Shown one piece after another: positions 49,909-53,087 of a stretch of DNA of 64,000 nucleotides. Below the pieces are notes generated by a model that saw nothing but the letters and a program-made list of their open reading frames with translations, did no database searches and was not told the origin of the DNA. The position numbers and the translations under genes were made by a program. How positions within the stretch are numbered: position 1 is the first letter of the stretch; each line of letters begins with the position of its first letter. This stretch comes from Leptotrichia sp. oral taxon 879 str. F0557 (GTDB lineage: Bacteria > Fusobacteriota > Fusobacteriia > Fusobacteriales > Leptotrichiaceae), in NCBI RefSeq assembly GCF_000469385.1, contig NZ_KI271346.1, positions 14,630-78,629 on the forward strand. The letters are read 5' to 3'.

Positions 49909-50157
49909 AATATCTCATCTCCTTCTACTGTTAAATTAGTTTGATTTCATAAACTTCTGTAATCTGCTTTTTTAGTAATTTGTATTATTATAACATAATT
50001 TTTGAAAAAATGAAAATACTATTATTTTCTTAATCATTTTAAACAAACTTATACAATATGCCAAAAATAGAATCACATAAGATTTCTGTAAATTTAATTT
50101 AAAAAACTAAAAATCTATGATATAATTATTTTAAAATTAATAAAAATGGAGGTTATC

Positions 50158-50682
50158 ATGGATTTTGAAAATAATTTTTTAGATAAAGAAAAAAAGAATG
50201 AAAATATAGAAAATAGTCATTACTTTAATAATACAGCAGAATTAGACAAAATTAGGAAAGAAGTAACTGGAAATTTTAAAGAAAATCAGAATTTTAAAAA
50301 TTCCGAAAATAGTCAGAATAGTAAAAAAAATGGTTCGATTAGGCTAACTTTAGATGAATTTACTATTAAAAATATAAAAACAATTGTTTCTATCACAAAA
50401 TTTCTTTCCGTTATAGGAATTTTTATAGGAATATTGCAATTATTTACATTTCTTATTGGGATTTTTACTATTTTTATTTCATTAAAATTCCTTAATTTTT
50501 CTTCGGCTTTAGACGATGCCATTAAAATGGAAGATGAAAATAAATTAAAAATTTCTTTTAAAGAGCTTGCGAAAGGATTGAAGTTTTATATAATCTCATT
50601 AATTGTTATATTTATTTTCATATTCTTACTTGTTGCTATATCTGCAAGTCTATATCACACTTCAGGATATTACTACAATTAG
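50158..50682 (+). CDS. Two-helix membrane protein (DUF5362-like)
   Basis: The first 70 residues are polar and Asn-rich. Two membrane segments follow, IVSITKFLSVIGIFIGILQL with its continuation, and FYIISLIVIFIFIFLLVAI, with a charged helix DDAIKMEDENKLKISFKELA between. That layout resembles DUF5362, of unknown function. I start at the ATG at 50158, five bases after GGAGG. The gene lies alone, divergent from the ATP-grasp gene. Confidence 0.65.
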   Translation: MDFENNFLDKEKKNENIENSHYFNNTAELDKIRKEVTGNFKENQNFKNSENSQNSKKNGSIRLTLDEFTIKNIKTIVSITKFLSVIGIFIGILQLFTFLIGIFTIFISLKFLNFSSALDDAIKMEDENKLKISFKELAKGLKFYIISLIVIFIFIFLLVAISASLYHTSGYYYN

Positions 50683-50691
50683 TATTAAAAT

Positions 50692-50725
50692 TTAAAAATA
50701 GGGAGAGCTTTCTCTCCCTCATTTT
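50692..50725. terminator. Bidirectional terminator
   Basis: GGGAGAG (50701-50707) pairs with CTCTCCC (50712-50718). The T-rich run is best on the minus strand, for the FtsZ-like gene, but the hairpin also serves the convergent plus-strand gene. Confidence 0.78.
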
Positions 50726-50740
50726 CCGATTATCATAATA

Positions 50741-51646
50741 TTAAACGCTTGATATCACTACTGTCTTAATTTTCTGGGTCTTATCATAATCTTGATTCAT
50801 TATTACTCCCCAGATTAGATTTACATTCTTATCTTTAACAATGTCCGAAATTTTTTCTGTTATCTGTCCAATATTCGCTAAAGAAACATCATGCCCTGCA
50901 GTAAAATTTATAAGAACTTTCTTCGCATTTTCCAATTTTCCTTCAAATAAATTATTTTCCTTCAGCTGTTCAATTATCTCATCAACAGCATTATCTCCCT
51001 TACCTTCTCCAACACGAATAATTGTATCCTTTGAATTGTAAAGAACTGCCTTTATATCTAGTAAATCAATATTCATAAACCCAACTTCCGTCAGAATATT
51101 TACAATACTTTCAATACCTTCTTTTATAATCTCGTTTACTTTATTGTAAGCCATCTCAAGAGGCTCTTTCTTATCTATATGATTATATAATTTTTCATTC
51201 GGAATTACAATCAGACTATCCGTAATCTTCTCAATCTTCTTAATACCTGTATTTGCAATCTTTAAATTCTCAAATCCTTCAAGATAAAATGGACGTGCAA
51301 CAATACTGATCGTAAAAATTTTTAATCTTTTAGAAACATCGAGAATAACAGGCATTATACCACTCCCAGTAGCTCCACCAATTCCTGCAACCAAAAACAA
51401 AATATCTGTACCTTTAAATAATTCTCGAAATTGACTCTCACATTGAAGTGCCACTCTCTCAGCCTGTTCTCTACTGCATTCCTTAACCCCAGTATCTAAA
51501 AAAATCTTTTTTTCAGCTTGACTTCGCTCAGAATTCTTACTATCTGTATCAATCGTTATATATTCAACCTTCCTTACTCCTGAAGCTATCATAAAATTAA
51601 CAAAATTTATCCCCATTCCACCAATTCCAATAACTTTTACACTCAT
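50741..51646 (-). CDS. Short FtsZ/tubulin-family GTPase
   Basis: This is a homologue of the division-ring protein FtsZ. The N-terminal nucleotide fold has VIGIGGMGINFVNFMI and TIDTDSKN, the tubulin signature is AGIGGATGSGIMP (GGGTGTG in most FtsZ), and the catalytic T7 loop FMNIDLLDIKAVL keeps both Asp residues. The protein stops after the second domain, at 301 residues, with no linker and no C-terminal peptide for FtsA or ZipA-like partners. I start at the ATG at 51646, behind AAGGA. No ftsA or ftsQ is nearby. Confidence 0.82.
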   Translation of the reverse strand: MSVKVIGIGGMGINFVNFMIASGVRKVEYITIDTDSKNSERSQAEKKIFLDTGVKECSREQAERVALQCESQFRELFKGTDILFLVAGIGGATGSGIMPVILDVSKRLKIFTISIVARPFYLEGFENLKIANTGIKKIEKITDSLIVIPNEKLYNHIDKKEPLEMAYNKVNEIIKEGIESIVNILTEVGFMNIDLLDIKAVLYNSKDTIIRVGEGKGDNAVDEIIEQLKENNLFEGKLENAKKVLINFTAGHDVSLANIGQITEKISDIVKDKNVNLIWGVIMNQDYDKTQKIKTVVISSV

Positions 51647-51659
51647 TTTATCCTTCATA

Positions 51660-52133
51660 CTAATCCCGCTATTGCAAATTATAAATTTTGCAAATCTCCC
51701 TTCTATAAATATGTCTAAATATTATAGTCGATTCTCTTTAAATATATAAAAAGAAATAAATTGGCTATAATCTTTACACTCATTTTAATCTATGATTTCT
51801 ATAAACTTAATTTTATATTTGTATATATTTTACCAAATTAAACCAGGTATTTCAAGGGAAAGAATATGAAAGTTTAAATTTATTGTGTAATTAGGTATGA
51901 CTCCTAAAATATATTAAAAAATCACAGCTAATTTAATAACTGTGATTCTAATTTATATTTTTTACTTTTGGCTTATTTTTACCGTAAACTCGATTTTAAG
52001 ATAAATATTCGTAAGAATAATTTGAATATTTGGATTTTTGTTTTTTCAATAAAAATATTAACCTAAATATTCTTTTGTCAAAGCTATTTTGTCCAAAAAA
52101 TAATCATCATTATTTATATATTTTTAAAATATT
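51660..52133. other. Intergenic region of about 475 bases
   Basis: It contains a hairpin at 51920-51947 (AATCACAG/CTGTGATT) that is followed on the minus strand by TTTTTAAT and so could end the membrane-protein transcript. The rest is AT-rich with no gene seen. A promoter for the FtsZ-like gene must lie near 51660-51850 but has no clear consensus. Confidence 0.5.
51910..51947 (-). terminator. Terminator of membrane-protein gene
   Basis: 8-bp stem AATCACAG/CTGTGATT with an 11-12-base loop, then a T run on the minus strand, about 190 bases after the stop codon. Confidence 0.6.
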
Positions 52134-53087
52134 CTATTTTCTACCTCCAGCAATCTTCTCAAAAACAATCGACTTTGTTGCTACATAAAGCAAAATTGCT
52201 ATTAATAACGGCAATACAATTGATGTCAATAAAATTATTCCAATAATAACTGGCGTATTTTCAACCAAGTCTTTTGAGATAACATTTATTTCTTTTGAGA
52301 AATTATCAATTTTAACTTTTGCACTGTCAATTTGTCCTGGAATATTAAAAATGCTTTTGGATTGATCTAATGAAAGCATCTCATCTTTCACTTTATTTAG
52401 TCTTCCTAAATCTTGATTCAGTTCAACAATTGCAGGTTCTTTATATTCTTTTTCAAAATAGCTTGATATTGTGGAATTTACAAATATCGCACTTGGTAGA
52501 ACTATGTAAATATAAAGTAATATAAAAAACGAATATTTAGAAATCTTTCTAAAAATTCTTGTAACTTTGTTTTTATAAATAGTATATGGAAAAATTGTAA
52601 TTAATGAAATAAACGTCAATATTGTAGCCAATTTTACCTTAAAAATTTCATAATAAATCGTTTCCAGCTTCAGTATAACAACGCTCGCAAGCGACACTTT
52701 CCACAAAATATTTATCATATCGTAAATAGGCTGAATAATATCTCCAATCTCAATTTCCATTCCAACAATCATACTGACATTAACCGTACTACCTTCAATA
52801 ATATCCGTAGTTCCTTTCAAAAGCGACAATGTTAAAAACATCTTTTTAGATTCTTCATAAGTTTTTTCCAAATATGGCATTGTTAAATTTTTAAAAAAGT
52901 TAAAAATCGTATGTTCAAAGATTTTATCCATTATTCCAAAAATACATAAAATCAGTCCAATTACAATTAATATTTTAACCAATAGGTTCTTGCTATCTGA
53001 TTCCCATTTAGGAGAATCATTTTTCTTATTTTTTTTTATTTTTTTTTCTTCATTTACTGTTAATACAGCTTCTTTTCTTTCTTCCAA
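52134..53087 (-). CDS. Membrane protein of unknown function
   Basis: I do not recognise this 317-residue protein. A lysine-rich cytosolic N-terminus (residues 1-33) precedes about five hydrophobic segments: LLVKILIVIGLILCIFGI, one near 120-140, LATILTFISLITIFPYTIY, YSFFILLYIYIVLPSAIFV and IIGIILLTSIVLPLLIAILL. A charged helical stretch of about 70 residues (DLGRLNKVKDEMLSLD) separates the last two. GGAGTGAAATTG precedes the start. No operon partner is evident. Confidence 0.6.
   Translation of the reverse strand: MEERKEAVLTVNEEKKIKKNKKNDSPKWESDSKNLLVKILIVIGLILCIFGIMDKIFEHTIFNFFKNLTMPYLEKTYEESKKMFLTLSLLKGTTDIIEGSTVNVSMIVGMEIEIGDIIQPIYDMINILWKVSLASVVILKLETIYYEIFKVKLATILTFISLITIFPYTIYKNKVTRIFRKISKYSFFILLYIYIVLPSAIFVNSTISSYFEKEYKEPAIVELNQDLGRLNKVKDEMLSLDQSKSIFNIPGQIDSAKVKIDNFSKEINVISKDLVENTPVIIGIILLTSIVLPLLIAILLYVATKSIVFEKIAGGRK

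Follow-up and report, generated by a model that had tools for sequence, protein, structure and literature searches.

The window, the whole 64,000-nucleotide stretch of Leptotrichia sp. oral taxon 879 str. F0557 DNA analysed here, carries on its minus strand an intact open reading frame for a tail-less FtsZ paralogue, which we call Z2; the plus strand over the same positions is full of stops. The features of the locus are as follows:

50146–50682, plus strand: DUF5362 gene, convergent neighbour of Z2 (context only)
50700–50719, minus strand: terminator-like hairpin just 3' of Z2, between the convergent genes (sequence scan)
50741–51646, minus strand: Z2 coding sequence, tail-less FtsZ paralogue, 301 residues from the inner ATG
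50741–51658, minus strand: Z2 coding sequence from the in-frame outer ATG at 51658, 305 residues
51056–51073, minus strand: T7 catalytic loop NIDLLD (equivalents of N208, D210 and D213, kept)
51266–51268, minus strand: N131 codon, aligned to the catalytic R143 of S. aureus and B. subtilis FtsZ (lost)
51359–51379, minus strand: T4 signature GGATGSG (canonical GGGTGTG)
51464–51493, minus strand: TGVKECSREQ, replacing the canonical T3 loop GLGAGANPE with its G72 (lost)
51605–51628, minus strand: T1 nucleotide-binding loop GIGGMGIN, kept
51721–51750, minus strand: promoter-like pair TTTATA-18-TATAAT upstream of Z2 (sequence scan)

Translation of Z2 starts at either 51658 or 51646; AAGGAT lies directly before the second ATG, fits a candidate ribosome-binding site and would suit that start. 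The length of 301 residues originally given for the protein holds for the ATG at 51646 and becomes 305 from the ATG at 51658. Promoter-like sites in the scanned upstream region number 21 against a shuffle mean of 20.0, which is no excess. The DUF5362 gene adjoins Z2 in 10 of the 14 genomes with Z2, and it varies strongly (40–78% identity to the window's copy); no neighbour was found to be kept beside Z2 in all 14. We rejected an operon partner, as the commonest co-directional neighbour (52134–53087 in the window), for which no Pfam or NCBIfam match was found, immediately precedes Z2 in only 5/14 genomes.

Z2 matches the Pfam Tubulin/FtsZ GTPase domain (9.3e-29; 101.5 bits against a cut-off of 33) and the Pfam FtsZ_C domain (6e-13; 49.4 bits against a cut-off of 27), and with both domains over their cut-offs it belongs to the FtsZ superfamily. 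It falls below the NCBI FtsZ equivalog TIGR00065, scoring 214.4 bits against a cut-off of 295.2, where Z1, the canonical FtsZ of the same genome, scores 382.3. A structural model built solely on the 14 Z2 rows had a weak pLDDT of 67.6; an alignment of 48 rows, which took in 11 of the 14 Z2 and was mostly non-Z2, yielded a good predicted model (pLDDT 91.3, pTM 0.90) that may be biased towards the FtsZ fold and that ends with the last strand, without a tail. Its best fold match was S. aureus FtsZ (SaFtsZ; Z 39.7, rmsd 2.0 over 301 residues), and a Foldseek comparison of the two gave E 6.2e-37 and TM 0.91. Among FtsZ, FtsZl and TubZ, the families named at the outset, Z2 sides with FtsZ by scores, architecture and fold. 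TubZ, tubulin and FtsZl were rejected as identities, the best solved FtsZ matching at 4.5e-61 and entries not named FtsZ at best at 8.4e-8; in the search of solved structures TubZ reached 1.4e-4, and the PhuZ phrog gave 6.2e-8 and 33 bits, against 214 bits with the FtsZ model. As described in PMC2875224, FtsZl1 and FtsZl2 have family-specific inserts between T1 and T4, FtsZl1 has a coiled coil and neighbouring vWA-domain genes, and FtsZl2 has a C-terminal region of about 300 residues. Z2 has instead a deletion between T1 and T4 and nothing C-terminal to the FtsZ core, and no vWA domain was found in its five scanned window neighbours.

The genome (2.42 Mb, 99.9% complete) contains three tubulin/FtsZ genes by the Pfam GTPase-domain search, Z1, Z2 and Z3; Z4 escaped this search, and the FtsZ_C search counts four copies. 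Z1 is a canonical FtsZ of 372 residues on another contig, beside an FtsQ-type POTRA-domain gene, so that Z2 is not the sole FtsZ of the organism and does lie away from the division cluster, as had been predicted. A further gene adjoining Z1 is, judged by eye, presumably murB. Position 143 of Z1 is K, not R, in 13/13 Leptotrichia, the change (R143K) described as lowering GTPase activity in S. aureus (PMC8936486). The Z1 C-terminus reads FVLPPFF(E/Q)E, without a basic residue, in 13/13 Leptotrichia; outside the family, 12 of 13 sampled lineages have a basic FtsZ C-terminus of the (D/E)(L/I/V)P..(I/L/V)R type, and tests for FtsA were positive in 10 of these 13 lineages.

The expectation that ftsA would accompany a canonical ftsZ was not borne out. 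No FtsA was detected with the SHS2_FTSA model in 33 family genomes, where all 27 other genomes of the order match, and the NCBI ftsA model was over its cut-off in 0/33 family genomes and in 26/27 others of the order (G044 lies below). Every family genome does have matches to the latter at E ≤ 0.001 with partial model cover; the listed ones all score below 75 bits, where the cut-off is 175.85, and we take them for other actin-fold proteins. As FtsA is below cut-off in all 33, this is a family trait, not one specific to the genomes with Z2. SepF was present in 60/60 relatives; of the two FtsZ anchors sought, it alone was found in the family. It interacts with the FtsZ C-terminal domain, according to the text of PMC8178401, in which some Fusobacteria members have both anchors and Fusobacteria do not appear in the passage listing phyla with two FtsZ copies.

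We then compared Z2 with 36 canonical FtsZ of the phylum. FtsZ acts on its nucleotide through N44, D46, Q48, G72 and R143 on the nucleotide side and N208, D210 and D213 on the T7 side, as set out in PMC8936486. The T1, T4 and T6 loops are kept in Z2, including the predicted GGATGSG box, N25 and N166 are kept in 14/14, and so is each member of the T7 triad N208, D210 and D213. The original prediction of intact GTP-binding and catalytic-loop residues thus stands for T1, T4, T6 and T7 and fails for the T3 loop with G72, for Q48 and for R143, each lost in 14/14 (one Z2 has K at 143). In the canonical proteins, Q48 and G72 are present in 36/36 and position 143 is R (19) or K (17). Compared with B. 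subtilis, the T3 segment of Z2 is short by five columns, lacks the glycine-rich stretch and contains an invariant C61 (14/14); N44 is replaced by D in all 14, D46 is kept in 10 and is N in the other 4, and D97, which forms an inter-subunit salt bridge in SaFtsZ (PMC8936486), is also lost. Since the T1, T4, T6 and T7 loops are kept but T3, Q48 and R143 are gone, Z2 probably binds GTP and probably hydrolyses it poorly in its own pocket, most likely lacking the parts that position the catalytic water and the charge above the GTP it holds; judging from its T7 loop, it could complete the active site of a neighbouring subunit. In S. aureus, R143K and Q48A allow assembly and lower GTPase activity, and R143Q and D46A suppress assembly, as reported in PMC8936486. 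With R143 lost and N in place of D46 in 4/14, Z2 may therefore not polymerise.

The absence of a C-terminal tail, linker and anchor peptide was upheld: past B. subtilis position 306, the window's Z2 has 8 residues and the 14 Z2 have 8–9, compared with 42–93 in the 36 canonical proteins, and linker and C-terminal peptide are absent in 14/14. These features make it very improbable that Z2 is a redundant second FtsZ doing the work of Z1: the FtsZ fold and both Pfam domains would fit such a protein, but a score of 214 bits against the 295-bit NCBI cut-off, the missing tail and the lost T3 loop, constant in 14/14, speak against it.

Z2 is under purifying selection, as judged from median dN/dS ratios of 0.13 for Z2, 0.11 for Z1, 0.20 for Z3 and 0.43 for Z4, calculated over pairs with dS between 0.05 and 3 (78/78 for Z1, 78/78 for Z2, 44/45 for Z3 and 36/36 for Z4, the diverged G001 copies being left out of the Z4 set). 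Pairwise dN of Z2 tracks that of Z1 with r 0.947, a value reached in 0 of 5000 permutations, and Z2 looks vertically inherited. A pseudogene was rejected on the dN/dS of 0.13 and the intact frame in 13/13, and a mobile or phage origin because dN follows Z1. Phage matches to Z2 (24 records) are all under 60% identity, with the ten listed at 29–32%, and so indicate no phage source.

To compare the two faces of the subunit, we used 76 positions nearly invariant in the 36 canonical FtsZ, which we grouped ourselves and which are not independent, so that the p values are a guide only. Z2 keeps 4/6 such positions in the T7 region and 21/41 on the nucleotide face (Fisher p 0.67). Its identity to the Leptotrichia Z1 consensus is low (T7/H8 0.38, H10 0.32, S9 0.38) and hence gives no special sign of a lower face kept for Z1; among Z2 proteins themselves, conservation is 0.97 in the T1 region and 0.86 in T7/H8.

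Z3 (311 residues) and Z4 (282 residues), both tail-less and degenerate, are not on the contigs of Z1 and Z2 but lie near each other (contig C21, L069:2292–4877), flanking a gene for a ToxN-family toxin, and occur in 10/13 and 9/13 genus genomes. They have lost the T3 loop (G72 0/9 in Z3, 0/11 in Z4) and N166 (0/9 and 0/11), and their G-box is broken, and they keep N208 and D213 (9/9 and 11/11 each) and D210 (9/9 and 10/11). The T7 region is kept at 6/6 positions in both, the nucleotide face at 16/41 in Z3 and 8/41 in Z4 (Fisher p 0.007 and 0.0003, respectively), and T7/H8 identity to the Leptotrichia Z1 consensus is 0.86 and 0.71. With T7 kept and the nucleotide face eroded, Z3 and Z4 have the look of Z1 partners in which a single face still works, and Z2 appears to keep both faces partly. 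The region around Z3 and Z4, with genes that by eye we take to be Msr, RR and rfaE2, has a between-species median dS of 0.15–0.24, compared with 0.71–0.76 for Z1 in the same pairs; on account of this low dS, the region seems to have been exchanged between species as a whole.

The asymmetry between the T7 side and the nucleotide side, stronger in Z3 and Z4 than in Z2, also bears on an improbable role for Z2 as a division brake, that is, a non-polymerising GTP- or GDP-bound regulator that would use its intact T7 loop to cap or sequester Z1. All 14 Z2 keep the T7 triad while G72, Q48 and R143 are lost, and the inhibitor MciZ is described as binding the lower face of FtsZ and capping filaments (PMC8936486). 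A pure cap, however, would not need the T1, T4 and T6 loops that Z2 keeps under purifying selection, and the lower face of Z2 is not especially Z1-like.

In phylogenetic trees, Z2 has a very long stem of its own, outside ordinary fusobacterial FtsZ. The full tree, which carries a long-branch warning, groups it with second FtsZ proteins from other genera (96/94), a grouping that may reflect long-branch attraction; once the second FtsZ of other genera, Z3 and Z4 were removed, Z2 fell in an unresolved fork. The full tree comprised 9 of 10 Z3 (the shorter G005 copy left out), 11 Z4-type proteins (a truncated G001 copy left out) and no Z5 (a further FtsZ-derived protein, below). Canonical FtsZ was represented in it by 10 of 20 proteins from the rest of the family and 13 of 65 from beyond it, and the second FtsZ of other genera by 6 of the 8 fetched. 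Z3 and Z4 nest with Leptotrichia-side canonical FtsZ (98/99). Placing Z2 on the Leptotrichia side (p 0.441) and uniting Z2, Z3 and Z4 in a single clade (p 0.412) both survived approximately unbiased (AU) tests, and the latter value leaves unproven that Z2 arose separately from Z3/Z4. Neither part of the outcome named beforehand as counting against the original prediction, a sole FtsZ nested with ordinary fusobacterial FtsZ, was found, Z1 being present and the stem of Z2 being long and its own. With Z1 elsewhere in the genome and this stem, describing Z2 as a modified division protein or a second tubulin-like filament is still reasonable.

The latter possibility, that Z2 builds its own filament apart from the Z-ring and serves a role other than division, for example in shape or cytoplasmic organisation of long rods, we consider unlikely, though there is something to be said for it. 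The very long stem, the divergence of both faces from Z1 with tight conservation among Z2 proteins, the stand-alone gene distant from the division cluster and the missing tail for Z-ring tethering would all suit such a filament. Its assembly is harder to reconcile with the loss of catalytic acceptor residues, including R143 (R143Q being the S. aureus change described as suppressing assembly; PMC8936486), and no partner gene is kept beside Z2 in all genomes.

All 13 genomes of the genus carry Z2, as does 1 of the 20 genomes from the rest of the family; a contig scan for named relatives gave a single Leptotrichia locus, together with two MAG-derived FtsZ of full length. Across 98 Fusobacteriota genomes, at least two FtsZ_C matches occur in 14/33 within the family and 16/65 outside it. 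Among other Fusobacteriota, g17 (10/12), g20 (3/3), g18 (2/3) and g26 (1/1) have genomes with two or more. The second FtsZ of g17 (n=3) and g20 (n=2) resembles Z2 in its short tail (12–17 residues in the 5 proteins) and in standing beside a canonical FtsZ, but differs in keeping G72; the g17 proteins retain Q48 and R143 as well.

We also observed, at loci L126–L131, L054, L140, L142 and L145, a 235-residue FtsZ-derived protein, Z5, in which only the T7 loop and the C-terminal part are recognisable. It adjoins a WYL-domain regulator and exchangeable genes, one of them with a weak, sub-threshold resemblance to a PD-(D/E)XK nuclease and the others without a family. Eight of nine complete copies, one in another genus, are 95–100% identical, the G004 copy being at 47%, and this near-identity across genera indicates that Z5 moves between species. 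A search of the window's genome yielded no Z5, and one of plasmids no match; a role in defence would be a guess, the WYL gene alone having matched PADLOC clearly.

Sinorhizobium FtsZ2 and the magnetosome protein FtsZm are tail-less FtsZ. Given that tail-less paralogues are already known, Z2 is not categorically new. Among open-licence PMC papers, we found no description of FtsZ paralogues in Leptotrichia by title, and no paper on FtsZ paralogues with lost GTP motifs. With canonical FtsZ (its own Z1; S. aureus FtsZ 7oja/7ohk), Z2 shares the fold, the T1, T4 and T6 loops and the T7 triad; it differs in lacking linker and C-terminal peptide, in the loss of T3, Q48, R143 and D97, and in scoring under the NCBI cut-off. 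Agrobacterium has three FtsZ homologues, one alone with linker and C-terminal peptide (CTP), as described in PMC13170164; its accessory FtsZ thus resemble Z2 in lacking both beside one full-length FtsZ, although they belong to another phylum and are likened here by description. Chloroplast FtsZ1 is likewise a second FtsZ in the same compartment, without the CTP that its partner keeps, and according to PMC8142252 it has no known membrane partner, counterbalances FtsZ2 filament stability and is presumed to reach the ring by co-assembly with FtsZ2, for which the sedimentation described there gave no direct evidence. The plant FtsZ1/FtsZ2 core is reported as conserved, binding and hydrolysing GTP (PMC8142252), whereas Z2 has lost catalytic acceptors, and FtsZ1 presumably has a different origin.

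On balance we favour, tentatively and short of calling it probable, a reading that makes Z2 an accessory FtsZ subunit, itself untethered, which tunes the filament formed by Z1 in the manner of chloroplast FtsZ1; we place it ahead of a separate filament, a division brake and redundancy, in that order. Z2 would be made beside Z1, would bind GTP and split it slowly in its own pocket, and could still complete a partner subunit's active site with its T7 face. Without a tail, Z2 would offer SepF no site for tethering. By co-assembling with or docking onto Z1 filaments, Z2 would dilute their membrane anchors and hydrolytic sites, and this dilution would adjust how stable the filaments are and how they turn over, in the way chloroplast FtsZ1 acts on FtsZ2. 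The canonical Z1 in the same genome, the predicted fold, the kept loops, the T7 triad, the missing tail, the presence of SepF with no FtsA over the cut-off, the occurrence in 13/13 genus genomes and the low dN/dS are consistent with a tuning subunit; the sequence of the lower face, which does not appear Z1-like, the Fisher p of 0.67, the loss of D97 and the changes at R143 and D46 that may prevent polymerisation argue against one, and no neighbour is kept in all genomes. That dN of Z2 tracks Z1 is also expected from plain vertical inheritance.

Extending this to the other copies, it is conceivable, if doubtful, that Leptotrichia, in a lineage without FtsA, gained a graded set of one-sided FtsZ, with Z2 holding GTP without normal hydrolysis, Z3 and Z4 lacking the GTP pocket, and all keeping the T7 triad with which a partner's active site is completed; these subunits would act as built-in inserts, caps and GTPase activators of the Z1 filament and make treadmilling a multi-protein, tunable process. 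Nature may have made FtsZ subunits with one working face, as structural biologists make by mutation. One full and several partial FtsZ, in a family without detected FtsA, would offer a natural test of what the tail, T3 and T7 contribute to treadmilling and Z-ring anchoring.
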